A DNA stretch of 33,003 bases. Origin: Methanosarcina sp. GTDB taxonomy: Archaea > Halobacteriota > Methanosarcinia > Methanosarcinales > Methanosarcinaceae. Under the pieces are notes generated by a model. It did not search any database. It saw nothing but the letters and a program-made list of their open reading frames with translations, and had not been told where the DNA came from. Below, piece after piece: positions 5,165 to 33,003 of the stretch. The DNA is taken from contig DUGT01000069.1 in the NCBI GenBank assembly GCA_013331275.1, forward strand, positions 2,789 through 35,791. The letters run 5' to 3'. The position numbers were made by a program, and so were the translations under genes. Within the stretch, counting starts at the first letter, position 1. Every line of letters begins with the position of its first letter.

Positions 5165-5273
5165 TCTGTCATTAACTGTTAGCAAATAACTAAACCTGAT
5201 TGTGTAATCATTGACTCAGTATCCTGTTTTTGTGGCAAAGAGAATCCAGTTTATGCATCAATTACTAAGAGGC

Positions 5274-6692: not shown

Positions 6693-6908
6693 TCCCAGTC
6701 ATCCCCGGTTAATTCCGATAAGCTTTGTATAATTCCTCTAAGAGAGAATAGCTTTCATGAATTTAAAATGAACGAAATAGTATATTTTTTCTTGTTTATT
6801 TCAGCTTTATCGAAGCTATTTTAGATATGTTTTCTACAGAGCCTGAGTTATTACATTGGGATTGTTGAAAGGGTATGAATACCCCCTTCCTTTACCCTTT
6901 TTTAAATT

Positions 6909-8342: not shown

Positions 8343-8547
8343 TCATCCCCGGTTAATTCCGATTGGCTTCGTAGAATTCCTCTAAGAGAATAAGAGTCTT
8401 CATGAATTTAAAATGAACGAAATAATGTATTATTCTTGTTTATTTTAGCTTATTGAAGCTATTTTAGACAGGTTTTCTATAGAATCCGGAATATTACAAG
8501 GGGATAAGGAGAAGCATGAATACCCGCCCTTTACTACTTCCAAAATT

Positions 8548-9897
8548 TTAAACATTGAAACTTCCACCATGATGTTTGGCTGCAACTATATTCAGCTTAT
8601 CGTCCAGTATAAGATCCTGATAAATAAATGACTTCCCAGACCCGAAGTGTAGATGTGAAATACTTACTATTGTAGCATTAGAAAAACTCATTCGTGAATT
8701 TAGAAATACTAATTGAGTACCATAACTGGATGTTTCCGTAATCAGTTCTTCTCCAGCATCATCAACACAAAGGGTATTTAAGGGTACATTTGAGAGATGA
8801 GTTTTTGAAGACATTGTTTCTTTGTTCCCTAGCATTGTAATATTCCTTTCAGGTGTGACCTTTAATACATAGTCGAGATATATGGAGGGTGCATTATTGG
8901 AAGGATAATTTAGCAGAAAATCTGAACTGGCCTTATCAAGAGACTCGAATACACTTCTATTTACCCAGTTAAGATAATAATGGTCCTCGTAAAGTGGTAT
9001 TCCAAAAATTTCAGAGTAATTGCAACTTTCTGCTGTTCTCAGAGCTTTAATGCTGTTTTCAAAAGAGGTTGAAGGAACAAGAGTTTCCTGATACATCAGC
9101 AAGAATGATTCATTATACAAAGAATCAACCTGAAAAGTAACAGATCCGCTTATAGTTTGTCCTGGAAATAGAGTTGCATCTTTAATCTTAGTTTCACTTT
9201 CGAGATCTGACAGTATCTTGTTTCCATCCGAGTATGGACTCTCAGGTTTAATTGTGGTATTAAATATCTGATTTCCGTCACGTAGGTGAAGGTCATTTAA
9301 CTTGAAATCGAGGTTGTTTGGTCCATTATTTGTTATTGAAAGGTTATATACTGCATAATATTTTTCTGTGATATTAGATCCATCTTCGTATTCAAAAGAC
9401 CTGTATACACAAATTTTACCGTTTTCATTTTCTATTTTTTCAGAGTACCAAGGAACGTAATTAATGGCTACTAGAATCTCAGTTTTATTGTTTATAAGAG
9501 TAAATTTCAGCGAATTTTTTGGTGTAAATACACGAATAGTTTCATTATCATTGGTTTTAACAATCTGTGCATTATCTGCCCAATCAATATCCAGATCATT
9601 CTTGATGTAACTTATAAGTCTCTGGCTTTCGTTTCCAGGAACATTATCCCAGCTAAAAATATATCCCTCTACTTTTTCTAAATTAGTATGTATATGAATG
9701 CTTGAAAAGGATGTTACTTCGATTTCAGGGATATTTTCTGCTTCGTGGGACAGGTTTGTAGACGATATATTTTCTGGTGCCGCATTTACTGACCCTTGAT
9801 ATGCTGACTCATTTGATTGAGTGACATTATTCTCTTCAATACATCCACTAAAAATAATAAAGATTGTCAGAATAAGTATTAAAACTCGCAATCCCAA
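8548..9897 (-). CDS. Surface lipoprotein, array copy 2 (unknown function, divergent C-terminus)
   Basis: A 449-residue predicted lipoprotein with signal MGLRVLILILTIFIIFSGC (Cys19). It shares the stalk and the PEIEVTSFSS motif with its paralogs, although the usual MHDN becomes IHTN. The central DUF4352-like region is conserved (YYAVYNLSITNNG, TISGSVTFQVDSLYNESF). It is the shortest intact copy: the segment before NWVNRSVFES lacks the acidic YPYIWP stretch, and the C-terminal domain is the most diverged and ends GGSFNV. The start is TTG after an in-frame TGA, as in copy 3. The C-terminal differences suggest replacement or relaxed constraint. Function is unknown. Confidence 0.75.
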   Translation of the reverse strand: MGLRVLILILTIFIIFSGCIEENNVTQSNESAYQGSVNAAPENISSTNLSHEAENIPEIEVTSFSSIHIHTNLEKVEGYIFSWDNVPGNESQRLISYIKNDLDIDWADNAQIVKTNDNETIRVFTPKNSLKFTLINNKTEILVAINYVPWYSEKIENENGKICVYRSFEYEDGSNITEKYYAVYNLSITNNGPNNLDFKLNDLHLRDGNQIFNTTIKPESPYSDGNKILSDLESETKIKDATLFPGQTISGSVTFQVDSLYNESFLLMYQETLVPSTSFENSIKALRTAESCNYSEIFGIPLYEDHYYLNWVNRSVFESLDKASSDFLLNYPSNNAPSIYLDYVLKVTPERNITMLGNKETMSSKTHLSNVPLNTLCVDDAGEELITETSSYGTQLVFLNSRMSFSNATIVSISHLHFGSGKSFIYQDLILDDKLNIVAAKHHGGSFNV

Positions 9898-10102
9898 TCA
9901 TTCCCGGTTAATTCCAATTGGCTTCGTAGAATTCCTTTAAGAGAATAAGAGTCTTCATGAATTTAAAATGAACTAAAGTGCATTTTTTTCTTATACTTCA
10001 TCTTCTTTAATCTATTGTATACAGTTTTTCTACAGAATCCGGACTATTACAAGGGATCGAAGAGAGACATAAATACCCCTTCCTTCACTGTTTTTTAACA
10101 CT

Positions 10103-11533
10103 TCAAGACATAGCTTGTACGCGACGCAATTTTGCTACAACTATGTTCATTTTATCATCCAGTATTAGATCCTGATCCACAAGTGAAAAACGTGCCCGAT
10201 TATAGTCGTTAAAATATGAAATCCTTACTATTATGGCATTAGAGAAATTCATCTGTGGAATGTCACTCTCATCTGAATAGAGTTTATAGGTTTGGTTGTT
10301 TAAAATTGCTATTTTGCCAATCAAGGATGTGTTAATTAGTTCCTCCTCGGTATCATCAACGACAATGAAATAATTTTCTTGGTAAGATGACGTTGTGTCT
10401 TTTTCAAGTATTGACGTTATGTTCCTTTCAGGTATGACCTTTAATGCATAGATAGCCTCTGTCTGAGGTATGTCCTCTAGGGATGACTTTGCCAGATTCT
10501 TGGAATCAGCCTTATTTAAAAACTCAAATACGCTTCTGTTTACCCAGTTGGGCCATATGTACGGATACTCCTCAAGGTCAGGTTCAAAAGAATTATTACT
10601 GTATACAGTATTAAAAGGCGGTATTCCAAAGGTTATTGAGTAATTGTATCGTTCCGCTGTCCTCAGAGCTTCAATGCTTTTTTCAAAAGATGCTGAGGTA
10701 ATCGAAGTTTCATTATACATCAGTAGGAAAGATTCATTATACGGAGAATTAACCTGAAAAATAAAAGATCCATTTATAGTTTGTCCGGGAGATAGAGTTG
10801 TATCGTCAATTTTAGTTTCTTTTTTGGAGGTAGAAAGCACTTCAAGATATGGTCTTTTTTCATAAAGACTGTAAGGATCAAAAATTGTAGTATTAAATAT
10901 CTGATCCCCATCACGTATATGAAGTTCACTTAATTTAAAATCGAGATTTTTTGAACCATTATTCTTTATTGCAAGGTCATATACTAAATAATTCCTTTTT
11001 GTGATATTAGGTACTGATTTGTATATTTTATCAGGCCCGTACACAAGAATCTTACTTTTTTCCTTTCTTATTTCCCAATTGTACCAGGGATGGGAGTCAA
11101 TGGTTACTAGAATCTCAGTTTTATTGTTTTTAAGAGTAAATTCCAACGAGTTTTTGGAAGTAAAAGCACGAATAGTTTCATTATCGTTGATTTTAGTAAT
11201 CTGTGCATCATCTACCCAAATAATATTCAGATTATTCTTAAGGTAACTTATGAGTCTCAGACTTTCGTTCCCAGGAACATTGTCCCAGTTAAAAAAGTAT
11301 CCATTTGCAATTTCATTGTTGTCGTGCATATAAATACTTAAGAAAGATATTACTTCAATCTCAGGAACAGTTCCTTCTTTGGAAAACAGAGCTGCTGATG
11401 ATTGATTTTCCGGTGTTATATTTACTGAATCTTGAGATACTGACTCATTTGATTGAGTGTTTTTGTTTTCTTCAACACACCCACTAAAAATAATACAGAT
11501 TGTCAGAATAAAGACCAAAGTTCGCAATCCCAA
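10103..11533 (-). CDS. Surface lipoprotein, array copy 1 (first in transcription order)
   Basis: A 476-residue predicted lipoprotein with signal MGLRTLVFILTICIIFSGC (Cys19), stalk, PEIEVISFLSIYMHDN, central DUF4352-like domain (YLVYDLAIKNNGSKNLDFKL, SPGQTINGSFIFQV), EYPYIWPNWVNRSVFEFL and a C-terminal domain very close to that of copy 3 rather than of its neighbour copy 2. The start is TTG in ATGATTG right after an in-frame TGA. The upstream spacer is AT-rich and differs from the spacers inside the array, so this copy may have its own promoter. It is probably anchored on the outer face of the membrane and glycosylated. Ligand and role are unknown. Confidence 0.78.
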   Translation of the reverse strand: MGLRTLVFILTICIIFSGCVEENKNTQSNESVSQDSVNITPENQSSAALFSKEGTVPEIEVISFLSIYMHDNNEIANGYFFNWDNVPGNESLRLISYLKNNLNIIWVDDAQITKINDNETIRAFTSKNSLEFTLKNNKTEILVTIDSHPWYNWEIRKEKSKILVYGPDKIYKSVPNITKRNYLVYDLAIKNNGSKNLDFKLSELHIRDGDQIFNTTIFDPYSLYEKRPYLEVLSTSKKETKIDDTTLSPGQTINGSFIFQVNSPYNESFLLMYNETSITSASFEKSIEALRTAERYNYSITFGIPPFNTVYSNNSFEPDLEEYPYIWPNWVNRSVFEFLNKADSKNLAKSSLEDIPQTEAIYALKVIPERNITSILEKDTTSSYQENYFIVVDDTEEELINTSLIGKIAILNNQTYKLYSDESDIPQMNFSNAIIVRISYFNDYNRARFSLVDQDLILDDKMNIVVAKLRRVQAMS

Positions 11534-17014: not shown

Positions 17015-17254
17015 TTACAGTCCAGCTCTTTCAATCAGTAGATCTGCCACCTGTTTTGCGTCTTTGAACGGGAAATCCTTTTCAGTAACTAGGCTTTGTG
17101 CCTCTCTTGCAGTAACTTCAACGTCACCTATCATGCATGTGGTTTCCAGCCCCTCAGGCAGGGCAGCAATCAATTCATCCATCGTGTTTATGGGAAATTT
17201 TGCATTCTTAAGTATTTCAAGGATCTGTTCGTAAACTTCTTCTTTTACGCCCAT
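17015..17254 (-). CDS. MTH865-family protein
   Basis: A 79-residue protein matching the MTH865 family of small archaeal helical proteins in length and pattern: an N-terminal helix (VKEEVYEQILEILKNAKFPI), TMDELIAALPEG, a central GDVEVTAREAQSLV and a final FPFKDAKQVADLLIERAGL. Members have an EF-hand-like helical fold and no established role. It is transcribed in the same direction as the importer operon, 108 bp after the distal methyltransferase gene, so cotranscription is possible but not shown. Confidence 0.85.
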   Translation of the reverse strand: MGVKEEVYEQILEILKNAKFPINTMDELIAALPEGLETTCMIGDVEVTAREAQSLVTEKDFPFKDAKQVADLLIERAGL

Positions 17255-17362: not shown

Positions 17363-18124
17363 TTATTTTTCCCCATAGATTAAATGATAATTGTAATTAA
17401 AGGCTATCCGTTTCCGGAATGGCATATTCTCTTTCTGAAGGTTCATGATATCTTTCAGGTCGATATCTTTTATATTTTTGAATCCAGCAGCCCTGAAATA
17501 TTCAAGCATTTTTTCAGGAGGGACTCCATGCCTGTTTGGAAGCTCACTGTCGAGTTCTCTGGAGTAGTGTCCTTTTCTAGGATTCCTTCTTTCAACAAGC
17601 AAAGTACAGAAATCACTTACAAGTCGCCTTGCATTTGTTTCAATTGAACCGTCGTTCCAGACTCCGTCAATAACAATAAGTTTTCCCCCGTCCACGAGTA
17701 CTTTTTTCCAGTTCTGGACCGCAGTATCAGGGTGTGGAAGGGTCCAGAGGAGGTGGCGATTGACAACAATATCAAATGATCCGGCTTTAAAAGGAGGAGC
17801 CTCAGCATCCCCTTTTTTGAAAACACTGTTGAACTTCCTTTTAGAAGCTTTTTCCCTGGCTTTAGAGAGCATTTTTTCCGAAAGGTCAAGGCCTGTAACG
17901 TGGTGTCCCATTTCAGCAAACAGTAGCCCGATTTCGCATGTCCCGCAGCCTACGTCAAGCACCTTCAGCCTGCCTGGAGGAAGCAGGTTTTTAAACACAT
18001 TTTTCCAGGCTTCTCTTTCAGCTTCACTCTTGATCCCATGCCCTTCATGGCTGTCATATGTCTCGGATGAAACGTCCCATATTCGGGCAATAGTCTGTTT
18101 GATCTGGTTTTCCTGAGCTGTCAT
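17363..18124 (-). CDS. Class I SAM-dependent methyltransferase, distal gene of importer operon
   Basis: A 253-residue methyltransferase of the UbiE-like Rossmann type: motif I VLDVGCGTCEIG (about residues 54-66), acidic LDLSEKM at the end of strand 2, GDAEAPPF, then the conserved NRHLLWTLPHP and LIVIDGVWNDG. It is clearly paralogous to the operon's first gene (23376-24143), sharing the N-terminal WD-SSETYD-H-GHGI block and the RNPRKGHYS segment. The ATG overlaps the upstream ATPase stop by 4 bp, implying coupled translation. The substrate is unknown. Its place in a metal/peptide importer operon suggests modification of the imported or exported ligand. Confidence 0.85.
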   Translation of the reverse strand: MTAQENQIKQTIARIWDVSSETYDSHEGHGIKSEAEREAWKNVFKNLLPPGRLKVLDVGCGTCEIGLLFAEMGHHVTGLDLSEKMLSKAREKASKRKFNSVFKKGDAEAPPFKAGSFDIVVNRHLLWTLPHPDTAVQNWKKVLVDGGKLIVIDGVWNDGSIETNARRLVSDFCTLLVERRNPRKGHYSRELDSELPNRHGVPPEKMLEYFRAAGFKNIKDIDLKDIMNLQKENMPFRKRIAFNYNYHLIYGEK

Positions 18125-18828
18125 CTTTTAACATCTCTCTTTATATTTTCAATTGAAGTAATGGTCCCATTATCGAGATAAGCAATCCTGTGGCAGACCT
18201 TCCTTAACACCTCAAGGTCATGTGAGATTAGCAGGTAGGAAACACCTGTTTCCCTCTGAAGTTTCTGCATAAGGCGCAGGATCTGGGCCTGTACTGAAAC
18301 ATCAAGCATGGATGTGGGCTCGTCAGCAACTATAAAATCGGGAGATAAAGCCATGATCCTTGCGAGTACTATCCTCTGGATCTCCCCTCCGCTGAGCTGA
18401 ATAGGATAACGAGCAAGGTGCTCAGGGCGCAACCCTGTAAGTTCTGCCAGTTCCTCTCCACGCTTAAGGAGAGCATCTTGCTTTAGCCCGGAATGGAGTT
18501 TCAGAGGCTCGATAAGATTTTCAAAAGCTTTCATGCGGGGATCAAGGGAAGTCTCAGGATGCTGGAAAATAATCTGGATTTTAGGGCGTAGTTTCCTGAA
18601 CTCTTTTTTTCCCATGTCCAGTATGTTCGCTCCCTGAACACGGATTTCACCTCCAGTAGGTCTTTCAAGCCCTACAATACATTTGCCAATTGTAGTTTTT
18701 CCGGATCCGCTTTTTCCGAAAAGTCCCAGGGTTTCTCCGCGATCTACTGAAAAACTGACATTCCTGAACACCTCCAAAGTCCCGAAACTCATTGCCAGTT
18801 CGTTTACTGAAAGGATTGGAAGTGACAC
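18121..18828 (-). CDS. ABC importer ATPase, OppF/NikE type
   Basis: A 235-residue nucleotide-binding subunit with Walker A GKSGSGKTT, Q-loop FQHPETSLDP, signature LSGGEIQR, Walker B FIVADEP and H-loop SHD. The Q-loop followed by SLDP is typical of the nickel/peptide (Opp/Nik) branch. The C-terminal oligopeptide-type extension is absent, as in NikE-like proteins. It starts with GTG at 18828, inside the end of the upstream ATPase gene (25-bp overlap), and ends overlapping the methyltransferase gene. It pairs with the other ATPase to power the two permeases. Confidence 0.9.
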   Translation of the reverse strand: MSLPILSVNELAMSFGTLEVFRNVSFSVDRGETLGLFGKSGSGKTTIGKCIVGLERPTGGEIRVQGANILDMGKKEFRKLRPKIQIIFQHPETSLDPRMKAFENLIEPLKLHSGLKQDALLKRGEELAELTGLRPEHLARYPIQLSGGEIQRIVLARIMALSPDFIVADEPTSMLDVSVQAQILRLMQKLQRETGVSYLLISHDLEVLRKVCHRIAYLDNGTITSIENIKRDVKR

Positions 18829-19745
18829 CTGATCCAGCCTCCGTTATGGTTTTTCATTTCAGGGTGTTTTCTGAAACACTCAATACTCGAGTATCTGCAC
18901 CTCTCATGGAAAAAACAACCCTCGGGAAGGCTTATCCTGCTAGGGCTCTGTCCGCTAAGGGGAACAAGTCCGTTTCTTGGCTGAGCCCGGACAAGCCCCT
19001 TTGTATAGGGATGAGAAGGTGCGTTCAAAACCTTTGAAGCCTTATCCAGTTCTACAATCTCTCCTGCATACATCACAGCTATCCGGTCGCATACCTCAAG
19101 AGCCAGATCAAGATCATGGGTGATCAGGAGCATTGTCTTCCCATAATCATGTTTAATTTTAGTAAAAAGTTCCACTGCTCTTTCCTTTGCCTCGGGATCC
19201 AGACCTTTTGTAGGTTCATCCGCAATCACAAGTTCGGGTTCAAAAGAAAGAGACATACAAGCTATCAACCGCTGCCTCATGCCTCCAGATAACTGGTGAG
19301 GATAGAGATCGCAGAGTTTTTCAGGATCTCTTAAAAGGAGTTTTTTCATAAGCCTCAGAGATTTTTTCATTCCCTCTTTTTTGTCAATACCTCTTTCTTC
19401 GAAAACTTCCTCTATCTGAAGCCTGTTTTTCAGGACAGGATTCAGGGCTCCAGCAGGGTTCTGGGGCATAAGAGAAATACGTTTTCCCCTAATTTTCCTG
19501 AGTTCTGAGGGTCTAAGAGAAAAAAGATCCTGTCCTTGAAAAAATACCGTTCCTGAAACATTTGCGTTTGCCGGAAGAAGCCTTAGCAAGGCAAGACCAA
19601 TAACGGATTTCCCTGAGCCGCTTTCTCCGATTATTCCGAGAGTTTCTCCTTCCCTTACCTTAAAGAAGACATGAGAAACTGCTTTTACAGCGTTCTCTCC
19701 TGAAGAAAACTCAACCGAAAGATCTTTTATTTCAAGCAAGCTCAA
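18804..19745 (-). CDS. ABC importer ATPase, OppD/NikD type, with C-terminal Cys motif
   Basis: A 313-residue subunit: Walker A GESGSGKS, Q-loop MPQNPAGALNP, signature LSGGMRQR, Walker B LVIADEPTKGLDPEA and H-loop THD. The C-terminal oligopeptide-transporter extension (HPYTKGLVRAQP) carries GCFFHERCRYSSIEC plus a later Cys in IRCHF, the four-cysteine pattern found in some OppD/DppD subunits and linked to an iron-sulfur cluster. It appears to start with TTG at 19745, overlapping the permease stop (TTGA). Confidence 0.9.
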   Translation of the reverse strand: MSLLEIKDLSVEFSSGENAVKAVSHVFFKVREGETLGIIGESGSGKSVIGLALLRLLPANANVSGTVFFQGQDLFSLRPSELRKIRGKRISLMPQNPAGALNPVLKNRLQIEEVFEERGIDKKEGMKKSLRLMKKLLLRDPEKLCDLYPHQLSGGMRQRLIACMSLSFEPELVIADEPTKGLDPEAKERAVELFTKIKHDYGKTMLLITHDLDLALEVCDRIAVMYAGEIVELDKASKVLNAPSHPYTKGLVRAQPRNGLVPLSGQSPSRISLPEGCFFHERCRYSSIECFRKHPEMKNHNGGWIRCHFQSFQ

Positions 19746-20644
19746 TCGATTTCACCCCCTTCGTGGTTTGGGTCAAGGATATCCCTCATGCCATCTCCAA
19801 GGATGCTGAAGATAATCACAATAAAGGTTATTGCAAGCCCTGGAAAGATCGTCTGGTAAGGGGCTGTCCTCATGAATTCCTTTCCTGCGGAAAGCATTGC
19901 TCCCCATTCAGGCACATCGGCAGGAAGCCCTATTCCGAGAAAACTTAGTGTAGCAATAGAAAGAATTACATGCCCGAAGTCAATTGTGGCAAGCACGAAG
20001 AGAGTAGCTATGGCATTGGGCACGATATGCTTGCGGATTATGTAGAAATCTCCGGCCCCACCCGTTATGGCGGAAAGGACAAATTCCTGTTTTTTGATAG
20101 AAAGTACCTGACCTCGCATCATCCTGGCATACTTTGCCCAGTGAACTATGGAGAGAGCAAGCATCAGGTTGAAAACCCCGGCCCCGAGTGCCCCCATAAT
20201 AGTAAGGGCAAAGATGACACTGGGAAAAGAAAGGAAGATATCTGTAACCCTGGAGATGCTTTCATCCACAAAGCCTCCGTAATAGCCTGCTGCACAACCT
20301 GTAGCAGTTCCCAGAAATAGGGAGATCAGCACTACTCCTGAAGCAATTGAAAGAGAAGTCCGGGCCCCTATAAGGATTCGACTCAGGAGATCTCTTCCAA
20401 GATAATCAGTACCCAGGATGTGCTCCTCTGAAGGGGTCAGGTTCTTGTTTTTCAGGTCAATTGCATTGGGGTCATAAGGGGAAAGTAGGGGGGCAAAAAC
20501 GGAAAGTCCGGCAAAAAGCAAAAGAGCTGCCAGTGCAAAAAGCATATCTTTTCTTTGAAAAACTCTTTTTACAAATTGACTTCCGTAAGCTTCAGGAAGT
20601 GAGAAATTCTTTTTTCTTAACTTATTAGTAAATACATTGTCCAT
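19742..20644 (-). CDS. ABC importer permease, OppC/NikC type
   Basis: A 300-residue permease. It has an N-terminal OppC-type segment with one helix (LFALAALLLFAGLSVFAPLL) and the LSPYDPNAIDL and HILGTDYLGRDLLSRILIGARTSL motifs, followed by a five-helix core with the EAA-like loop (GGAGDFYIIRKHIVPNA). This is the standard order for nickel/peptide permeases. The start codon lies 5 bp after the OppB-type gene and the end overlaps the next ATPase gene. Confidence 0.92.
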   Translation of the reverse strand: MDNVFTNKLRKKNFSLPEAYGSQFVKRVFQRKDMLFALAALLLFAGLSVFAPLLSPYDPNAIDLKNKNLTPSEEHILGTDYLGRDLLSRILIGARTSLSIASGVVLISLFLGTATGCAAGYYGGFVDESISRVTDIFLSFPSVIFALTIMGALGAGVFNLMLALSIVHWAKYARMMRGQVLSIKKQEFVLSAITGGAGDFYIIRKHIVPNAIATLFVLATIDFGHVILSIATLSFLGIGLPADVPEWGAMLSAGKEFMRTAPYQTIFPGLAITFIVIIFSILGDGMRDILDPNHEGGEID

Positions 20645-20649
20645 AAATA

Positions 20650-21591
20650 TCAGCCGTACCTTATCCGTGGGTCCAGATGCGTATAGAGCATATCCACAAG
20701 GAAGTGCACAAAGAGGAACATCATAACGATCGCAAGCACACAGCCCTGGACCACAGGCAAATCCCTGGCAGAAATCGAGTCCACAAGCAAGCTTCCTATC
20801 CCTGGCCAGGCAAAGATCTTTTCAATCACAACAGTCCCTCCAAGCAAGCCACCCATCTGAAAACCAATAACTGTGATAACAGGTAGCATTGCATTTTTAA
20901 GCGCATGCCTGCTTACGATTTTCCATAAAGGAAGACCTTTGGCTTTTGCAAACCTGATATATTCCTGTCCCAGGGTCTCAAGCATGCTTGTCCTTGTAAC
21001 TCTCATAACCGCAGCAACGGAATGAAGAGAAAGTGCTGCAGCGGGCAAAAGCAAATTTTCCAGACTCCCGTAACCAGTCACAGGCACAAGTTTTAACCTC
21101 AGGGAAAATATCAGAATAAGAAGCAGGGCTACCCAGAAACCAGGCATTGAAACTCCAAAGAGAGTCACAATCCTAAGAATATGATCCGAAATTTTGTTTT
21201 CCCTGATAGCTGAGTAAATTCCCAGACTTACTCCTGCAAGCATTGCAATTAGCATACTCACCATTGCGAGCTGAATAGTTGCTGGAAGGCGTAAAGCCAG
21301 AAGATAAAGAACTGGCTTTTTGAAAACATAGGAGGTTCCTATGTCCCCTCTTAATACTGCTTCTTTAATCCACCTGAAAAACTGCAGGTAAAGAGGGTCA
21401 TCCAGGTCATATTTATCTGAAATCTGGTTAAGCTGTTCGTCTGTTACGCTTTCTTCCAGGCCCACGAATGTGTGCTTGAGGACTAACTTAGCTGTGCCTC
21501 CAGGAATTACGTTCATAAGGAAAAAGGTCAAAGCACAAACTGCAAAAATCGTAAGTGCCATGAAACCTACCCTTTTTATGAAATATTTCAT
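20650..21591 (-). CDS. ABC importer permease, OppB/NikB type
   Basis: A 313-residue permease with the OppB/NikB hallmarks: an N-terminal helix and FFLMNVIPGG, the YLQFFRW segment, and an EAA loop (QEYIRFAKAKGLPLWKIVSRHALKNAMLPVIT). GTVVIEKIFAWPGIGSLLVDSI follows, and the protein ends HLDPRIRYG. It is separated from the solute-binding gene by 113 bp containing a hairpin that may reduce expression of downstream genes relative to the binding protein. Confidence 0.92.
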   Translation of the reverse strand: MKYFIKRVGFMALTIFAVCALTFFLMNVIPGGTAKLVLKHTFVGLEESVTDEQLNQISDKYDLDDPLYLQFFRWIKEAVLRGDIGTSYVFKKPVLYLLALRLPATIQLAMVSMLIAMLAGVSLGIYSAIRENKISDHILRIVTLFGVSMPGFWVALLLILIFSLRLKLVPVTGYGSLENLLLPAAALSLHSVAAVMRVTRTSMLETLGQEYIRFAKAKGLPLWKIVSRHALKNAMLPVITVIGFQMGGLLGGTVVIEKIFAWPGIGSLLVDSISARDLPVVQGCVLAIVMMFLFVHFLVDMLYTHLDPRIRYG

Positions 21592-21658
21592 GTTTTTTCC
21601 TCAACCCGGACAGAAAGCAAGCCTATCTATCCGTACTACTCTGAGTAAATATGAGTCC

Positions 21659-21694
21659 CAGGGTTAGAGTCCGAAAAATCCGGACCCTTCCCTG
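21659..21694 (-). terminator. Intra-operon hairpin after the solute-binding gene
   Basis: Two stacked stems, CAGGG/CCCTG outside and GTCCG/CGGAC inside, lie between the binding-protein stop and the permease start. Such partial terminators or mRNA-stability hairpins often allow higher output of the binding protein; the role here is inferred. Confidence 0.5.
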
Positions 21695-21704
21695 AAAAAT
21701 CCCT

Positions 21705-23345
21705 TCAGCTTTTATTTTCCAAATACATGCCCGCATTTATGCGGTAGTCATGGGCTGTCGGATCGAAAACATACCCTTTTACATAATCTTTCTTTACTAT
21801 TGCACAACCGTAGTAAGCCACTATGATCATGGGCTGTTCATCATAAACGATAGCTTCTACCTCATTGAACTTTTTATAGCGTTCATTCGGATCCGTGATT
21901 TTTCTGGCTTCAGTTATCAGGGAGTCTACTTTAGGATTGGAATATCCTGGCGTATTGTCAGTTCCGTTTGTCATGTACCAGTTCGTGAGAATATATTCCG
22001 GATCGGGAACCATTGCAATATTGTAAGCGGCGAGATAGAGGTCCCAGTTGCCTTTTTCCCTTCTGTCATCTATTGACCCCATTTCCATAACTTCTGTCTC
22101 TATACCTATGCCTGCCTCCCTTAACTGGGCAGCCATAGCTTCAGCCATTGGAGGTAGTCCAGGCCTTGCAGCATAAGTCATCAGGTTGAGCTTGAGGGGT
22201 TTTCCGTCCTTATCCCTTATCCCGTCTCCATCAGTGTCCACCCAGCCTGCAGCTGTCAGAAGCTCATTAGCTTTCTCAAGGTTCTGGCTGTAGGGCTTCA
22301 GACTCTTATTTGCCCAGACCATTGTGGGCAGGAAAGGACCTGCAGCAGCCTCTCCTACATTATATAGCACATTTTCTGCGATATCAGACCTGTTAATGGC
22401 ATAGGAAATAGCCTGTCTTACTTTTACATCTTCAAGGGGTTCATGCTTCAGATTCAGGTCAAGTTTGTAGACTCTTGGAGTTTTGTATTTCTCTACATTA
22501 ATGCCGTCTATGGCGTCAACCCTGTCAGTTTCACTATAAGGTACATCGACAGTAAAGTCAATTTCTCCATTTTCAATTGCCATTGCTCTTGTGTTCGGGT
22601 CAGGTATCCCTTTAAGGATCAGTTTATCAAGCCCTACTTTTCCTCCCCACCAGTTTTCGTTCTTTACAACTGTCAGAATTCTGGTCTGTTCATCAAAGGA
22701 TTCGAATTTATACGGGCCCGTTCCAACGGGTTTAACAAATTCTCCTTTTTCATTATAAGAAGAGGGACTTATTATAGCGGTATCAGGATAATGTAGAACT
22801 CCAGGAAGGATAGGATTGATTTCTTTGGTTTTGATTTTAAGAGTATAGTCGTCAACTACTTCTATAGAGTCTATTTTTAACATGGAAGCAACTTTCGAGT
22901 TTTCCGAGATGACTTTTTCCAGAGTGAACTTTACTTCTTTTGCAGTCATTTTGCTTCCGTCATGGAAAGTAACATTATTTCTTAGCTTAAATTCCCAGGT
23001 ATTTTCATCAAGCTGTTCCCAGGAAGTTGCAAGCTCAGGCTTAAGCGAGAAATCTTCATTGGCACCAACGAGAGTTTCGGTTATTGCAGCTTTCTCGCAG
23101 ACAAGGGTACCATCCCCATTAATTGGATCAATTGATTCGATGTCCCACATTTCACCAAGTACGAGTGTATTATTTTCAGAGCCTCTTTCCGGATGGGAGG
23201 CGTTATCCGAACCGGAGGTAACTTCCATCCCGGAAACTTCTCCGGTTCCATTTTCGTCTTTACTGCTGCATCCTGAAGTCGTCAGGACGGCACAGGTAAG
23301 CATGATAATTAACAATATAATCAAGGGGGAGTTTTTACATTTCAT
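21705..23345 (-). CDS. Solute-binding lipoprotein, SBP family 5 (nickel/peptide type)
   Basis: A 546-residue lipoprotein: signal ending VLTTSGC (lipobox), Ser/Asp-rich linker, then a full-length family 5 binding protein (LKPELATSWEQLDENTWEFKLRNNVTFHDG; AVRQAISYAINRS-like segment; QLREAGIGIE; DPNERYKKFNEVEAIVYDEQPMI). The YAARPGLPPMAEAMAAQL segment is reminiscent of NikA-like proteins, but the ligand (free nickel, a metal-chelate or a peptide) cannot be read from sequence. GGAGA about 8 bp before the ATG supports the start. It follows a methyltransferase gene by 30 bp in one operon. Confidence 0.88.
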   Translation of the reverse strand: MKCKNSPLIILLIIMLTCAVLTTSGCSSKDENGTGEVSGMEVTSGSDNASHPERGSENNTLVLGEMWDIESIDPINGDGTLVCEKAAITETLVGANEDFSLKPELATSWEQLDENTWEFKLRNNVTFHDGSKMTAKEVKFTLEKVISENSKVASMLKIDSIEVVDDYTLKIKTKEINPILPGVLHYPDTAIISPSSYNEKGEFVKPVGTGPYKFESFDEQTRILTVVKNENWWGGKVGLDKLILKGIPDPNTRAMAIENGEIDFTVDVPYSETDRVDAIDGINVEKYKTPRVYKLDLNLKHEPLEDVKVRQAISYAINRSDIAENVLYNVGEAAAGPFLPTMVWANKSLKPYSQNLEKANELLTAAGWVDTDGDGIRDKDGKPLKLNLMTYAARPGLPPMAEAMAAQLREAGIGIETEVMEMGSIDDRREKGNWDLYLAAYNIAMVPDPEYILTNWYMTNGTDNTPGYSNPKVDSLITEARKITDPNERYKKFNEVEAIVYDEQPMIIVAYYGCAIVKKDYVKGYVFDPTAHDYRINAGMYLENKS

Positions 23346-23375
23346 TTCGGAATCTCCATCTGCTTTTAATGGATT

Positions 23376-24143
23376 TTATTTTCGGCCGCAAATGAGATAG
23401 TACTGGTAACTGCGTACAATCCGTTCACCCAACGGCATCTTCTCTTTCTGGGCATCTCTTACTTCTTTCAGGTCAAAAACCTGGAGATTTTCAAAACCTG
23501 AATTTAAAAGGTACTCCTTTACTTTTTCAAGTGGAGCTCCTCCGGAATGCGGGAGCTGGGCTTTGAGTTCATCAGAATAGTCAGAGTGCCCTTTTCGGGG
23601 GTCTTTTCTTTCAAGGAGCAGTGTCAAAAGAGCACCTGCGTTTCTTCGAACTCTGGACTCCAGTGTCCCGCTGTCCCACACTCCGTCGATAATCACGACT
23701 TTCCCATTCTTCCGCAGAACTCGTTTCCAGTTCTCCACAGCTGCTTTTGGATTTGGGAGTGTCCAGAGAAGATGACGGCTGAACACAATGTCAAAAGAAG
23801 ATGTATCAAAAGGAGGGTTTTCTGCATCCCCTTCCCTAAAGGCTAGGTCAGCTCCGCAGGCTTCAGCTTTTGCTTTTGCAATTTTCAGCATTTGTCCGGA
23901 AATATCAATTCCTGCGACCTCATGCCCCATCTCAGCAAACAGTAAGCTCAACTCTCCTGTCCCGCAACCAACATCAAGAATTTTCAAGCTTTTTTCCGGG
24001 AAAACCTTCAAGAAAGCACGCTTCCAGGCATCTCTTTCTTTTTGACTCTGAATCCCATGCCCTGCATGAGTATCAAAAGTCTCGGATGCAAGATCCCATT
24101 TATGGGCTACCATCTCTTTTATCTGGATTTCTGAAGAAGACAT
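23376..24143 (-). CDS. Class I SAM-dependent methyltransferase, first gene of importer operon
   Basis: A 255-residue UbiE-like methyltransferase with motif I ILDVGCGTGELS, IDISGQM, GDAENPPF, SRHLLWTLPNP and VVIIDGVWDSG. It is a close paralog of the operon's last gene, with the same length and insertions, including RKDPRKGHSDYS, which is unusual for generic UbiE proteins. Having one at each end of an importer operon points to two successive or alternative methylations of the same kind of ligand. The dyad at 24233-24268 lies about 90 bp upstream and probably controls the operon. Confidence 0.85.
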   Translation of the reverse strand: MSSSEIQIKEMVAHKWDLASETFDTHAGHGIQSQKERDAWKRAFLKVFPEKSLKILDVGCGTGELSLLFAEMGHEVAGIDISGQMLKIAKAKAEACGADLAFREGDAENPPFDTSSFDIVFSRHLLWTLPNPKAAVENWKRVLRKNGKVVIIDGVWDSGTLESRVRRNAGALLTLLLERKDPRKGHSDYSDELKAQLPHSGGAPLEKVKEYLLNSGFENLQVFDLKEVRDAQKEKMPLGERIVRSYQYYLICGRK

Positions 24144-27000: not shown

Positions 27001-27381
27001 AAGTAAGAATCTAATTTATTTTACGAGTATTTAATTTTACCATATTATATACATTAAAATTATTCAACGCTTCTAATAATTCTTTGATTTTTCATGACCA
27101 ACTTATATGTAGTTTAAACAATTTTAATTTTAACCAAAAATAAAAACAAATTTTCCTAATTCAGCCCGACTTTTGACACATTTAGTTTATCGTGAAAAAT
27201 ATCGCTAACTCAATAGAACCAATTATAGCAAATTACATATCATCAGTAAGAAATAAGTAACCGTTTTCCTTTAGAAGTTCTATTTCAAAATTCTAATAAT
27301 ACCATAGACATTCTACGATCATTAATTATACCTATCCTGCGACCTTGTATATATTTTTACAGGATAAAACCCCGATATGCA
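27001..27381. other. AT-rich intergenic region, no gene seen
   Basis: Nothing coding is visible. A TATA-like GTATATATTTTT at about 27346-27357 lies about 25-35 bp before the ModE-like dyad and probably serves the binding-protein gene. Confidence 0.4.
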
Positions 27382-27401
27382 TTATGTCTGCTCAAACATA
27401 A
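27382..27401 (+). promoter_or_regulatory. ModE-like dyad upstream of the binding-protein gene
   Basis: TTATGT-N8-ACATAA (27382-27387 and 27396-27401) lies about 30 bp after a TATA-like stretch and 19 bp before the first ATG. Half-sites and spacer are identical in design to the dyad in front of fmdE (29224-29243). Confidence 0.55.
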
Positions 27402-27419
27402 CAGCTAAATAACCAAAGT

Positions 27420-28555
27420 ATGTCAGGCGTTTTTATGAATCGAAAAGTATATATTATATTGCTTCTCTTCCTCCTGCTTCCAGTTGCTATGCTCTGTGGA
27501 TGTGTAGAAAATACGGATCAGCAGGCTGTACCGAACTCAAGAACTGAGCTTCAGAACTCAAGCACCGTGCAGATAACCGACATGCTGGGAAGGCAGTTAA
27601 CCGTGCCTGCGGAAATATCCTCGGCTATAGGCACTTCTTCACCTCCTGCTATCCTTGTGTATATGCTTGCTCCGGACAAACTTGCAGGCTGGAACTCCAG
27701 GCAAAATTTCACCCATCCCTTTATGGATGAAAATTACTCAAATCTACCTGTAATAGGAAACTGGTTAGGAACCAAGACCGGAAACTATGAAACTATAATT
27801 GATATGCATCCTGACATTGTTATTGAAAGCACCTCCACGTATGGAAAAACTAATGAAGTTATAGAACGCAGGCAGGAAAATCTTGGCAGCATTCCGGTGG
27901 TGGCTATTAATGATTCTATTCTTTTTGTGACACAATCCGATCCTACTATCGAATATGTGGGCAAGCTGCTTAATTGTGAAGCCCAGGCAAAAAACTGATT
28001 GAATTCCGCAGTTCAATCCTCAACGAGATAAACAATACTGTAAAAGACATTCCCGAGGACCAGAAAGTACGCATTTATTATGCCGAAGGTCCAAAGGGAC
28101 TAATGACCGATCCATCAGGTTCGCAACATTCTCAGGTAATTGATATTTGTGGAGGTATCAACGTTGCCGACTGTCCTCTCACGCCCGAAAGCGGCATGAC
28201 ACAGGTCTCAATAGAACAGGTTATGAACTGGAATCCTCAGGTAATTATCACTTCCAATCCCCAGTTCTATTCGACGGTTTACTCTGATTCTCTCTGGCCA
28301 AGCCTAGATGCTGTGAAAAACAAAAGAGTATACCTTGCTCCTCAGAATCCTTTTTGCTGGATTGACAGGCCTCAGGGCCCTCACCTTATCCTCGGAACTG
28401 CCTGGACTGCAAAAATGCTGTATCCTGATCTTTTCGCAGACATGAACCTCTCCGAACTGACTCGTGAATTCTACTCGGAATTCTTCCACTACGACCTTAA
28501 GGATGAAGAACTTAACATACTCCTTAACCCTGAACCAAAACCTGAGCACGGATGA
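27420..28555 (+). pseudogene. BtuF/MolA-type solute-binding lipoprotein, frameshifted or requiring -1 frameshifting
   Basis: Two open frames together give one class III (TroA/BtuF-like) solute-binding protein of about 378 residues. It has a lipoprotein signal ending AMLCGC, then TDMLGRQLTVPAEI, VIGNWLGTKTGNYETIIDMHPDIVI and, after the break, RIYYAEGPKGLMTDP and WNPQVIITSNPQFY. The first frame ends at TGA 27996-27998. The second is -1 relative to it and open from the break onward. The break is at A_AAA_AAC (27989-27995) in the correct frame phase, with a 7-bp hairpin (GATTGAA/TTCAATC) starting one base later. It may be a one-A deletion, a sequencing error or programmed frameshifting. ATG 27435 (MNRKVY) may be the true start. 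Relatives bind cobalamin, iron chelates or, in MolA, molybdate/tungstate. No permease or ATPase gene is adjacent. Confidence 0.75.
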
Positions 28556-29187
28556 AAATTTCTCTCCAGAAATTACATGACTTTATATTTTACTGGGAAA
28601 TAATGTGGGTAAATTTCGGTTTTTGCCCTTTTTCCTCTTATTAATTATTTGTCCCTGTTTAGATTCACTTTAAATAGGTACACTTTAAAATATAATATGT
28701 GTAGAACACGTTTTCCAAACTTCAAAAAAGAGTTTCTCTATATGTCCTTTTTTAGCAGGAAATTCTATTTTCATCGATAATTTTATAAAAGACCTGTTTA
28801 TATATTTTAAGTGCACAGTCCTGTTCAGTATTTATAGAGAGATGCTGAGCTTTACGAATCTGGAAATGATAGGGTTCCAGCTGGTGTTTTTCTGTGTCCG
28901 ACCAATATTAGGGCTCTAAACCTTATATTGAAATTTCTCCTTTATGTTAAGTAAAAAATAAGTAAGTTTCTGTAAAAAAGTTACCTATAAATACACTGTA
29001 TCCTTCTGCGTTATGTTGAAATTTAAAGAATTTGGACTGGTGCGCCTGCGAAACTAAATCGTACACAATAAGAATCGTAATTAAAGACGAGATTTAGACA
29101 GTTAAAGGTTTGATGCTATCCACGTTTCAACCGCGTAAGTCCTGACATGTAACTCCTTCAGAGAACCTAACTGCCTTTAAATGATCC
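28556..29187. other. Long intergenic region upstream of the fmd operon
   Basis: No gene is supported. A possible distal promoter consists of CTATAAATACA (28985-28995) with a CGTTATGTT half-site at 29009-29017 on the expected start. A single inverted-repeat arm GCGTAAGTCCTGACA (29133-29147) matches the end of the MITE-like element at 16714-16827. Confidence 0.45.
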
Positions 29188-29218
29188 TGTTGGTACTTAT
29201 GTTGGTACTTAATATAAT
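29188..29218 (+). promoter_or_regulatory. fmd promoter: 12-bp direct repeats abutting the TATA box
   Basis: TGTTGGTACTTA occurs twice in tandem (29188-29199 and 29200-29211) and runs straight into the TATA-like AATATAAT (29211-29218). From archaeal promoter spacing, transcription would start close to 29240-29246, giving a leaderless or nearly leaderless fmdE mRNA. The repeats overlap the BRE position and may bind an activator or repressor. Confidence 0.55.
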
Positions 29219-29221
29219 TAG

Positions 29222-29245
29222 CGTTATGTTTATTTAAACATAACG
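29222..29245 (+). promoter_or_regulatory. ModE-like palindromic operator at fmdE
   Basis: A perfect 11-bp inverted repeat (arms CGTTATGTTTA and TAAACATAACG around TT) ends one base before the GTG start of fmdE. The outer halves CGTTATGT and ACATAACG, 8 bp apart, closely resemble ModE operator half-sites known from E. coli modABC. A regulator bound here would cover the transcription start. Confidence 0.65.
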
Positions 29246-29872
29246 GTGAAACCCACGGTGGTGTACAAATTGCATAAAAATTCAGATGAAGAAAAACGCC
29301 AGATGGAGACAATTCTGAAGCAGATAAAGGATCCGGAACTACTTTCACAAATCGAAAAAGTAGTCCCCTTTCACGGCTTCCTGACCTCTGGGGCATTAAT
29401 CGGTATCCAGATGCTCAATATCGCAAGAAGGGAGCTCGATGTCCGGAACGGAGAACGCATATACGTGACCTGCGAAACTAAAAGCTGCATGCCTGATCCA
29501 TTCCAGATCCTTGCTGGAGCTACCATCGGAAACAATGGGTTAAAGATCATGAACTTTGGGAAGATGGCGGTCACGATAAATAAACAGGCGCCTGAAGGAG
29601 CTAACAGCATAAAAGGAATTCGAATTCTCCTCGACCCTGAAAAAACGAAAGATTATCCCAAACTCCACGCATGGTTCCTGAATACTCAAAAGCTCCCTCA
29701 TGTAGAGGTTCTACCAATCCTCCTGACTGCAGGAGAAAAAGTGTACTCATGGAAATTTGTGGACATCGAGGTTCCGGTACACAAAAAAAAGCGGATACAG
29801 TGCTGCAAAAATTGCGGTGAAATGTTCATTCAACATGATAACGAGCTGCTGTGCGGCGGTTGCACAGAATAA
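29246..29872 (+). CDS. fmdE: FmdE, formylmethanofuran dehydrogenase operon protein
   Basis: A 208-residue protein. The FmdE domain (about residues 40-160: FHGFLTSGALIGIQMLNIAR, ETKSCMPDPFQILAGATIGN, and GKMAVTINK) is followed by a zinc-ribbon tail with CCKNCGEMF and LLCGGC. The family is found next to formylmethanofuran dehydrogenase subunits; its biochemical role is not settled. The GTG at 29246 directly follows the palindromic operator and has no ribosome-binding site, which fits leaderless translation. An internal ATG at 29303 is the alternative start. It is the first gene of the fmd operon; fmdF starts 18 bp after its end. Confidence 0.88.
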   Translation: MKPTVVYKLHKNSDEEKRQMETILKQIKDPELLSQIEKVVPFHGFLTSGALIGIQMLNIARRELDVRNGERIYVTCETKSCMPDPFQILAGATIGNNGLKIMNFGKMAVTINKQAPEGANSIKGIRILLDPEKTKDYPKLHAWFLNTQKLPHVEVLPILLTAGEKVYSWKFVDIEVPVHKKKRIQCCKNCGEMFIQHDNELLCGGCTE

Positions 29873-29890: not shown

Positions 29891-30931
29891 ATGCAAGAAG
29901 ATATGCGATTGTCTGTCTTTGCCGAAAAAAAAGACAAGCAGCTAATATATTCCCCCGAAAAATGCATTGGCTGCGGGACCTGTGTACAGGCATGCCCTAA
30001 AGGTAACCTGGCAGTTGGAGCTGTTGGCGCGATAACAAGAGGGTTGTTGGATGCGGATTTTCTGGAAATGAAGGAAAGTGAGTCCTGCCTTGTCTGTGGA
30101 ATTTGCGCAAAAGTTTGTCCCACAGGTGCTCTTGAAATGAAGCAGGAAGGAAAAACTCTCACTGACATGTCCTACCTTTTCAGGGCTATGAAACCCACGT
30201 CAGTAAATGAAAACTGCGTTCACTGCGGGCTTTGTGAGGATATCTGTCCGCAAGGTTGTATTGAGGTAACCCGTGAGATTTCAGCAGATGGAAAACTGAA
30301 ACTTGTCGGAAAGACCAATATTGATACCGAATGCTGTGTCCACTGCGGCTGGTGTGCAGAAGTCTGTCCGGTAAATGCTATTTCTGTAGAAAAACCCTTT
30401 GAAGGAAGCTGGACCAGGGATGAGGATATTTGCCAGACCTGCCATACCTGTGTGGAAGTTTGTCCTGCGAATGCCATTTTTAATAAAAAAGCCAAACCCG
30501 GAGAACAAGTCGAAAAAATAAGTCACCGTCCAGATGCCTGTATTTACTGTGGAGCTTGTGCGGTTGCCTGTCCTGTTGATGCTATTGATGTAAGGAAAAC
30601 TGCAGTTCTCCCGAGCGTGGAGAAAAAGGGTGTGCTTGAGAAAAAGCTGCTTGAAGCCCCTGTTCAGCCAGCTCAGCTACGTACCTGCCTGGAAACCGAT
30701 GAAGCTGCATGCCTGGGCTGCGGAAACTGTGTAATTGTCTGTCCTGTGAATGCCCTTTCTGACCGTGAACTTGCAGCCGGGCATCTGAACAATATGGACG
30801 AAAAAGCCCTTCTAGGGGTTAAAAATGGGAGAATTTCAGTTATAGACCAGGACCGCTGTGGAGCAGATGGTACATGTGTCCTTATCTGTCCTGTTGATGC
30901 GATCAGGCTTGTAAAAAAAGAGGTGGAATAA
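29891..30931 (+). CDS. fmdF: FmdF polyferredoxin
   Basis: A 346-residue polyferredoxin with eight cluster motifs. Seven are canonical CxxCxxCxxxCP (for example CIGCGTCVQACP, CLVCGICAKVCP, CVHCGLCEDICP and CLGCGNCVIVCP). The eighth, CGADGTCVLICP, has Asp in place of the second Cys. FmdF/FwdF carries electrons between ferredoxin-linked partners and the molybdopterin active site of formylmethanofuran dehydrogenase. AGAGGTAA about 6 bp upstream supports the ATG. The stop codon is directly followed by the ATG of fmdA. The Asp-substituted motif probably holds a cluster with altered potential or an exchangeable iron, as in Pyrococcus ferredoxin; that is inference. Confidence 0.93.
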   Translation: MQEDMRLSVFAEKKDKQLIYSPEKCIGCGTCVQACPKGNLAVGAVGAITRGLLDADFLEMKESESCLVCGICAKVCPTGALEMKQEGKTLTDMSYLFRAMKPTSVNENCVHCGLCEDICPQGCIEVTREISADGKLKLVGKTNIDTECCVHCGWCAEVCPVNAISVEKPFEGSWTRDEDICQTCHTCVEVCPANAIFNKKAKPGEQVEKISHRPDACIYCGACAVACPVDAIDVRKTAVLPSVEKKGVLEKKLLEAPVQPAQLRTCLETDEAACLGCGNCVIVCPVNALSDRELAAGHLNNMDEKALLGVKNGRISVIDQDRCGADGTCVLICPVDAIRLVKKEVE

Positions 30932-32686
30932 ATGGCAGGAACAATTGCAATTAAGAACGGATACGTCTTTGATCCCCTCAATGAAATAAATGGGGAAATT
31001 ATGGATATCTTCATCAAAGACGGAAAAGTTGTAAGAGAGCTTTCTGCAGCCGAACTGAAAGATACAAAGGTTATTGATGCCTCTGGTATGACGGTCATGC
31101 CCGGAGGAGTAGACTCTCATTCTCACGTTGCAGGTGCAAAGGTTAACGCCGGCAGGTCGATGCGTCCTGAAGATCATTATAAAGCAAATCTTCAGAAGAC
31201 TTCACTTACTCATTCAGGCTCAGGTTACACTGTCCCCTCAGTTTACAAACAGGGATACGATTATGCAGCAATGGGGTATACAACTGTTTTTGAAGCTGCA
31301 ATTCCCCCTCTTGAAGCTCGCCATACTCATGAAGAGATGCGTGCTACTCCTCTTCTTGACATGGGAGGATACCTGATCCTTGGAAACAATTTCTTTTTGA
31401 TGCGCTATCTCCATGATGGAGACATCGCAAAGGCTGCAGCTTATGTGGCCTGGATGATGAAAACTCACAAGTCCTATGGAATAAAATGTGTCAACCCTGC
31501 AGGAGTCGAAAACTGGGGCTGGGGTAAAAACATACACTCTCTTGATGAAGCAAACATCCATTTTGAAATTACCCCAAGGGAGACTATAAAAGGGCTTAGT
31601 GAGATCAACGAACTCCTGGGCATGCCTGTGCCTCTTCACCTGCATGCAAATAACCTGGGACATCCAGGATGCTGTACAATTACTGAGGACTCTCTCAAAA
31701 TCCTCGATGGTGTAAAGCCCAGGCAGAACATGGATGTAGAATGGGCTGAAACCAAAATGGACTCTACAAGGGACTGTTCAGTATACCTCGCCCACATGAT
31801 GTTCAACAGTTTTGCAGGCACTACCTGGGGAGATTGTGAATCAGGAGTAAAAAATATTGCAGCCTACATCAACAACAAAGACCATGTAGTAATCGATAGT
31901 GGTTGCACTCCATTCGGAGAAGCTACGGTTATGACAGGAGATGGACCTGCAATTCAGGATATGTACAAGCTTACAGGAAACAAGTGGTCGAATACTGACG
32001 TTGAAATGGAGGGAGGGTCAGGTGTTATTCCCTTCACTTACCTCAAATCCAACCCTGTACACAGCTTGCAGTGGGCAATGGGACTTGAATGCCTCCTGCT
32101 AATTAATGATCCCTGGAAGACAATTATGACCACGGATAGCCCCAATGGTGGGCCATTTACGAAATATCCGGAGGTTATGACATGGATCATGTCCGAGGCT
32201 TTCAGGAAACAGACCTTCAGTGAGTGCCACAAGTGGGCAAACGATAGGAGTGAACTCGGAAGCATAAACCGGGAACTTTCCCTCTATGATCTTGCAATCC
32301 TTACCAGAGCTAACCCTGCTAAGACAATCGGAATGGCACACAGAAAAGGTTCTCTTGGCGTGGGCGCTGATGGAGATGTTACAGTCTATAACATAAATCC
32401 GCAGCAGCTTGACACAAACAACTATGAAGCTCTTCTCAGAACTTTCAGGAAGGCAGAGTACACTGTAAAAGGCGGCGAAATCGTAGCTGCTAAAGGAGAG
32501 ATTGTTTCCTTGCCTGAAAAGCGTACATACTACTCCGAAGTGCATGTAGAAGACGAAAAGGAAAAGGAAATGCTGGTCGATGTGAAGGAATGGTTCAGGT
32601 ATTACACTGTAGGTTTTGCCAACTATCCAACCCCAGAGAAATATCTGAAAAATCCGACTCCTATACAGGTTAACGTTGTGAGGTGA
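30932..32686 (+). CDS. fmdA: Formylmethanofuran dehydrogenase subunit A
   Basis: A 584-residue amidohydrolase-fold subunit. It shows the metal-binding GGVDSHSHVAGAKVN (His63 and His65), the GIKCVNPAG segment with a lysine near 185 that is the likely carboxylated ligand, LHLHANNLGHPG (His236 and His238) and the TTDSPNGGPF aspartate. In the known enzyme, subunit A forms a dinuclear zinc site that condenses formate with methanofuran after CO2 is reduced in subunit B. AGGTGG about 5 bp before the ATG and the abutting fmdF stop indicate tight coupling. Length is as expected. The stop is followed 4 bp later by fmdC. Confidence 0.96.
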   Translation: MAGTIAIKNGYVFDPLNEINGEIMDIFIKDGKVVRELSAAELKDTKVIDASGMTVMPGGVDSHSHVAGAKVNAGRSMRPEDHYKANLQKTSLTHSGSGYTVPSVYKQGYDYAAMGYTTVFEAAIPPLEARHTHEEMRATPLLDMGGYLILGNNFFLMRYLHDGDIAKAAAYVAWMMKTHKSYGIKCVNPAGVENWGWGKNIHSLDEANIHFEITPRETIKGLSEINELLGMPVPLHLHANNLGHPGCCTITEDSLKILDGVKPRQNMDVEWAETKMDSTRDCSVYLAHMMFNSFAGTTWGDCESGVKNIAAYINNKDHVVIDSGCTPFGEATVMTGDGPAIQDMYKLTGNKWSNTDVEMEGGSGVIPFTYLKSNPVHSLQWAMGLECLLLINDPWKTIMTTDSPNGGPFTKYPEVMTWIMSEAFRKQTFSECHKWANDRSELGSINRELSLYDLAILTRANPAKTIGMAHRKGSLGVGADGDVTVYNINPQQLDTNNYEALLRTFRKAEYTVKGGEIVAAKGEIVSLPEKRTYYSEVHVEDEKEKEMLVDVKEWFRYYTVGFANYPTPEKYLKNPTPIQVNVVR

Positions 32687-32690
32687 GGTA

Positions 32691-33003
32691 ATGACAGAGG
32701 GAGTCCTTATTAATAAAAAAGAGACAGAGAGTAAGCTTGAAGGAGTAACTATAAAACCTGAATCATTTACTGACAAAAGTGCTGGAGAAATGGAAGAAGT
32801 AACGCTTATTCCTAAAAAAGAGATTGATATTAAAGTAGAAGCTGATGTTATAACTCCTGACTCTTTTGCAGGCAAAAGTGCTGAAGAAATCGGAAACTTG
32901 GCAGTCTGGCAGGGGCCAAAGACCTATCCTCTCTCCGAGTTTTTTGAAGTTACAGGCAATGCAGGCAGTTCTGCAGCTGAGACCTCCATCCGTATAAAAG
33001 GTG
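32691..33003 (+). CDS. fmdC: Formylmethanofuran dehydrogenase subunit C, 5' part
   Basis: This is the first 104 codons of a gene cut by the window end, starting MTEGVLINKKETESKLEGV. GAGGTGAGGT just before the ATG is a strong ribosome-binding site. Position after fmdA and a C-subunit-like segment (VWQGPKTYPLSEFFEVTGNAG) support fmdC. Subunit C normally folds as a beta-helix related to the C-terminal domain of glutamate synthase. The N-terminus holds two similar blocks, KPESFTDKSAGEMEEV and TPDSFAGKSAEEIGNL, indicating an internal duplication. By comparison with other Methanosarcina, fmdD and fmdB should follow. Confidence 0.88.
   Translation, partial: MTEGVLINKKETESKLEGVTIKPESFTDKSAGEMEEVTLIPKKEIDIKVEADVITPDSFAGKSAEEIGNLAVWQGPKTYPLSEFFEVTGNAGSSAAETSIRIKG

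Follow-up and report, generated by a model that had tools for sequence, protein, structure and literature searches.

The window analyzed here, a 33,003-nucleotide stretch of a draft Methanosarcina genome, carries an orphan binding-protein gene and the beginning of the operon for the molybdenum-type formylmethanofuran dehydrogenase (fmd), each preceded by the palindrome TTATGT-N8-ACATAA. The locus thereby raises the question of whether both are controlled by one regulator, by which one, and in which direction. A sequence-only reading had taken the palindromes for ModE-like sites, and our analysis supports this interpretation: judged by genome comparison, it is highly likely that the dyads are operators of an archaeal ModE with a single Mop domain, which would govern molybdenum/tungsten uptake and fmd as one regulon.

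Four things were computed directly: where the sites lie, which regulon they form, how they depend on ModE being present, and which domains the regulator has. A pattern scan of the window located the claimed pair of exact dyads at 27382–27401 and 29224–29243, and no further exact copy was found in the 33 kb. The longer palindrome described for the site before fmdE was also recovered as a 24-bp, CG-bounded dyad, CGTTATGT-N8-ACATAACG, at 29222–29245. The control rate in the genus predicts 0.006 exact copies for the window, and the probability of finding at least two is ~2e-5. Pattern and family searches covered the host genome (4.33 Mb, 224 contigs), where eight exact dyads were found vs one match to the reversed pattern. 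Seven of these eight lie upstream of molybdenum/tungsten genes, namely the MolA-like gene and fmdE of the window, a second fmdE-fmdF operon, an intact MolA-like paralogue, modA with its permease, and a third Peripla_BP_2 gene with two upstream dyads 168 bp apart; the remaining one has no evident target gene. A targetless exact dyad occurs at the same place in genomes G000 and G004 with a different spacer (L001:1501-1520 and L156:2378-2397), possibly marking a small gene or RNA that the annotation lacks.

The 31 Methanosarcina genomes contained 141 copies of the N8 dyad vs 23 of the reversed control, and altered spacers gave 11 (N7) and 21 (N9) copies. Hence, the dyad is not a common genome-wide sequence, and its enrichment is specific to N8. 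The flanking C/G bases, which are absent from the query pattern, were enriched as well (~64–70%). Relaxed matching with up to two or three mismatches fell close to background (421 vs 434 control in the host genome), and we discarded it as evidence. This last result speaks for two A/T-rich palindromes formed by chance, but the exact, spacing-specific enrichment, the functional clustering and the genus-wide counts contradict this explanation, whose probability we regard as negligible.

Next, we inspected the surroundings of all exact sites in 11 genomes and assigned the individual sites to genes by hand. As expected from the proposed enrichment before molybdenum/tungsten genes, 62 of 69 exact dyads were linked to molybdenum, tungsten or nitrogenase. 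The target classes were fmd, the tungsten-type operon fwd, modA or modA-like genes, wtpA, MolA-like genes, FecCD genes, and nitrogenase-type nifH/PII genes; the identities of modA (TIGR01256) and wtpA (TIGR03730) were above the curated cut-offs. Two dyads (L111, L168) that fall within a coding sequence resembling a nitrogenase subunit probably arose by chance. At nitrogenase-type nifH promoters of M. acetivorans (L107, ~8270-8360 and ~17110-17200), a GGAA-N6-TTCC-like element lies beside the dyad; it resembles the NrpR operator. This arrangement suggests that the nitrogenase-type operons may be under joint nitrogen and molybdenum control. Two further sites were observed. M. acetivorans and genome G007 share a conserved dyad that separates the gene of a peptidyl-prolyl isomerase from an HTH gene (L109:2301-2320 and L164:2458-2477). 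In another genus, a dyad lies upstream of a ModD/NadC-like gene (L134:1501-1520), and its 20-mer was found again in several genomes belonging to that genus.

A regulator that could recognize these sites was then sought. The sequence-only reading had proposed looking for a ModE-type HTH protein, and the host genome encodes one ModE-like protein, C127 (L016), in which a ModE-type HTH is combined with a single domain of the Mop/TOBE type. Its N-terminal HTH matched TIGR00637 (ModE_repress) at 64–65 bits (E=1e-17), below the curated NCBIfam cut-off of 98.5, and its C-terminal domain matched TIGR00638 (Mop) at 64.3 bits, above the cut-off of 55, as well as TOBE PF03459. The DNA-binding stretch aligned to E. 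coli ModE 1b9m and to 2ijl, sharing the ISYK-AW motif and the GGK wing with 1b9m. Tandem Mop domains as in E. coli ModE were not found in C127, which contains one TOBE stretch only; we therefore class it, from its domain matches, as a probable single-Mop ModE outside the E. coli class. A free-standing Mop/TOBE (molbindin-like) match was also noted ~1 kb from the second fmd promoter (L018, G000:C48:4528-4716). Autoregulation of modE was considered and rejected, since in six inspected loci the 400 bp upstream of the gene contained no dyad.

The dyads followed the presence of this protein. In a family set of 112 genomes, the 100 ModE-bearing genomes contained 263 dyads vs 43 for the control, whereas the 12 genomes without ModE, several of which are incomplete, contained 4 vs 5. 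G018, a nearly complete Methanosarcina genome, has neither ModE nor dyads and retains fmdE only as broken fragments; ModE-bearing genomes with zero exact dyads also exist (e.g. G025, G061, G063) and, like the HTH score below the cut-off and the lone Mop domain of C127, count against the ModE reading. These counts bear on whether the dyads bind another regulator, such as Tfx or a different HTH protein. Tfx binds downstream of the fmdECB promoter in Methanothermobacter (PMC3087415), where molybdenum formylmethanofuran dehydrogenase is likewise under metal-dependent control with a molybdate transporter adjoining, and a gene for a sigma-like HTH protein lies near some MolA-like genes (L003, L034). 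However, Tfx was found in none of the 31 Methanosarcina genomes and was ruled out as the fmd regulator there, with ModE-type sites in its place. As the enrichment also tracks ModE and the site is laid out like a bacterial ModE operator, control by another regulator appears quite improbable.

The noted likeness to E. coli ModE operators was borne out. The bacterial consensus, ATCGNTATATA-N6-TATATANCGAT (PMC545781), and the Methanosarcina dyad share a 24-bp, CG-bounded layout with an NTATRT half-site, and modA is among the targets. The proteins share a LysR-like winged HTH, the ISYK-AW helix, the GGK wing and a Mop/TOBE oxyanion domain. In contrast to the bacterial system, the Methanosarcina protein has a single rather than a tandem Mop domain, its half-site has G for A (TATGT vs TATAT), and its sites stand at archaeal TATA promoters with fmd, fwd and MolA-type genes as targets. 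The principle is known: PMC9765008, citing Studholme and Pau (2003), ascribes to ModE the control of modABC in Methanosarcinales and an effect on nitrogenase types, so ModE control in this group had already been proposed. In the literature consulted, which did not include the original regulon of Studholme and Pau (2003), we found neither fmd nor MolA-like genes as targets, nor the triple operator of fmd with its decay in the host clade, nor the fwd geometry.

At the binding-protein gene, the following features were located.

27344–27357, plus strand: TATA-like box of the binding-protein promoter, CTTGTATATATTTT, read directly, 25–38 bp before the dyad
27382–27401, plus strand: ModE-type operator dyad of the binding-protein gene, TTATGTCTGCTCAAACATAA, exact pattern match
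27435–28555, plus strand: orphan MolA-type substrate-binding lipoprotein gene (Peripla_BP_2), with PF01497 in both halves

Four relatives (G003, G004, G005, G030) share the gene, the dyad and the adjoining fmd operon, with an intact frame of 375 aa, and the dyad lies 19 bp before the annotated start in these orthologues. An ATG had been claimed at that distance; position 27420 is GTG in the four orthologues, and the conserved start is the ATG at 27435. A one-base frameshift was found in the window copy, where an A-run near 27990 (27975-28020) is one A shorter than in the four relatives; the cause is a recent break or else an error in the assembly. The intact paralogue matched Haemophilus HI_1472 (MolA) 3psa with E=9.6e-27 over 306 residues. 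The proposed tie of the orphan protein to molybdenum supply agrees with its family, which includes this solved protein. Like MolA of the MolBC-A molybdate-tungstate importer, the MolA-like proteins fall into the BtuF-like Peripla_BP_2 class, with E=9.6e-27 to 3psa/3psh, and FecCD permease genes belong to the regulon of relatives; unlike it, the gene in the window is a frameshifted orphan, and the best solved match of the intact paralogue is another binding protein, 4pag, ahead of MolA. Because 4pag matches better, molybdate or tungstate is only a putative ligand, suggested by the regulon context. The dyad, at or just past the expected transcription start, suits repression, as judged from its spacing to the TATA-like box. 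Elsewhere in the window, five tandem paralogous lipoprotein-like genes (3640-11533, minus strand) and a dipeptide/nickel-type ABC transporter operon between two related methyltransferase genes (17363-24143) were observed.

The fmd region was more complex, and an upstream alignment of fmdE from ~25 genomes, together with pattern scans and domain matches, gave the following organization.

28797–28807, plus strand: candidate far-upstream fmd promoter P1, TATA-like box TTTATATATTT, present in most relatives
28839–28860, plus strand: decayed fmd operator O1, from multi-genome alignment and scan; AGATATGT-N8-ACATATCT in relatives
28985–28993, plus strand: main fmd promoter P2, conserved TATA box CTATAAATA, from the fmdE upstream alignment
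29011–29030, plus strand: fmd operator O2, decayed (two mismatches, right half degenerate), located where transcription is predicted to start
29222–29245, plus strand: fmd operator O3, the 24-bp dyad described above, exact and kept in nearly all fmdE loci
29246–29872, plus strand: fmdE, PF02663 (E=2e-31), start probably TTG 29270
29891–30931, plus strand: fmdF polyferredoxin, from many Fer4 domains and gene order
30932–32686, plus strand: fmdA, amidohydrolase subunit, PF07969 (E=2e-78)
32691–33003, plus strand: fmdC, start only, running off the window, from ORF and gene order

The gene order is that of M. acetivorans fmdE1F1A1C1D1B1 (PMC2838876). As shown by the alignment, three dyads precede fmdE, and their half-sites persist while the spacers vary. 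The O1 half-site is the variant AGATATGT; O2 comes immediately after the conserved promoter AAAAAGTTACCTATAAATACAGTGTATCCTTCTGCG and is exact in about a dozen relatives; O3 stands just before fmdE. The distance between O2 and O3 is ~79–88 bp in most species, and in the host clade ~128 bp are inserted between them and the right half of O2 is degenerate. O1 is also degenerate in the host genome, leaving O3 as the only intact fmd operator there. By this comparison, three dyads appear to be the ancestral state of the fmd operon.

This organization modifies the earlier description of the fmd promoter. A TATA-like box had been placed just before each dyad, which holds for the binding-protein gene, but the A/T stretch before O3 (29210-29218) is not conserved as a TATA box, and the conserved promoter lies ~239 bp upstream of O3. 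Therefore, the earlier promoter model for fmd was probably wrong, though its operator was right. The dyad was also said to lie directly before fmdE; the GTG at 29246 that abuts O3 is not conserved, whereas a ribosome-binding-like GGNGGTG and, downstream of it, the TTG at 29270 are. O3 might instead form an RNA hairpin in the mRNA leader, given that it is a perfect inverted repeat, adjoins the ribosome-binding region and follows the conserved promoter. Changes in one half-site are, however, uncompensated in the other (TTGTGT/ACATAA, TCTTGT/ACATAA), and the dyad also adjoins TATA boxes and stands upstream of fwd, so we consider a hairpin in place of a DNA operator very improbable.

On the preferred interpretation as ModE operators, a dimer of ModE, probably with molybdate or tungstate as its ligand, would bind TTATGT-N8-ACATAA, extended to CGTTATGTT-N6-AACATAACG. 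Physical binding, the ligand and the sign of ModE action are inferred. In most of the uptake promoters, the dyad overlaps the stretch between TATA and ~+25, and bound ModE is therefore predicted to block initiation. Bound at or just after the TATA box, it would hinder transcription of the molybdenum/tungsten uptake genes and, likewise, of the molybdenum-type formylmethanofuran dehydrogenase; in the window, the orphan MolA-type binding protein and the fmdEFAC... operon would then be under common ModE control. The suggestion that a bound protein blocks the transcription start accordingly fits most uptake promoters, whereas for fmd it had been derived from a promoter other than the conserved one. 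Repression by ModE is likely for the uptake genes and less certain for fmd.

Methanothermobacter makes fmd only with molybdate (PMC3087415), and repression of fmd by molybdenum-loaded ModE would therefore be of the opposite sign. Also counting against the preferred interpretation is the high expression of fmd1 by M. acetivorans in methanol medium (PMC2838876). A reactor deprived of Mo, W, Co, Ni and Mn showed a rise of Fmd in Methanosarcinaceae (PMC5859356), which agrees with derepression but is confounded by the other metals. It is conceivable, though doubtful, that ModE binds these operators with the other sign, such that apo-ModE represses or molybdenum-loaded ModE activates fmd and molybdenum induces the molybdenum enzyme. 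The Methanothermobacter requirement would fit this, and so would the dyad of fwd, found 484–665 bp upstream of tungsten-type fwdD in seven genomes (L106, L028, L030, L042, L165, L167, L169) and, where checked, directly upstream of a conserved TATA-like box; such a position would suit activation if that box is used, and either sign may thus be possible. Against it, O2, which is conserved, sits over the predicted start with O3 downstream of it, as at the uptake promoters, and the confounded reactor result also points the other way. Another reading, somewhat less likely again, is that single-Mop ModE is a metal-choice switch, which would repress fmd through the start-site operators, activate fwd through the dyad upstream of the TATA-like box, and shut the uptake and nitrogenase-type operons.

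For the preferred reading, in which single-Mop ModE governs uptake and fmd as one regulon, the conflict over sign thus lies between fmd sites that look repressive and a Methanothermobacter molybdenum enzyme made only with molybdate. The choice between the molybdenum- and tungsten-type formylmethanofuran dehydrogenases in Methanosarcina has been described as the subject of a test in progress (PMC2838876). To this question, our analysis supplies a candidate regulator, a defined operator, and a list of targets that contains both isoenzyme operons. If the metal-choice switch proved true, it would act on the first step of methanogenesis, at the choice between the molybdenum- and the tungsten-type enzyme.
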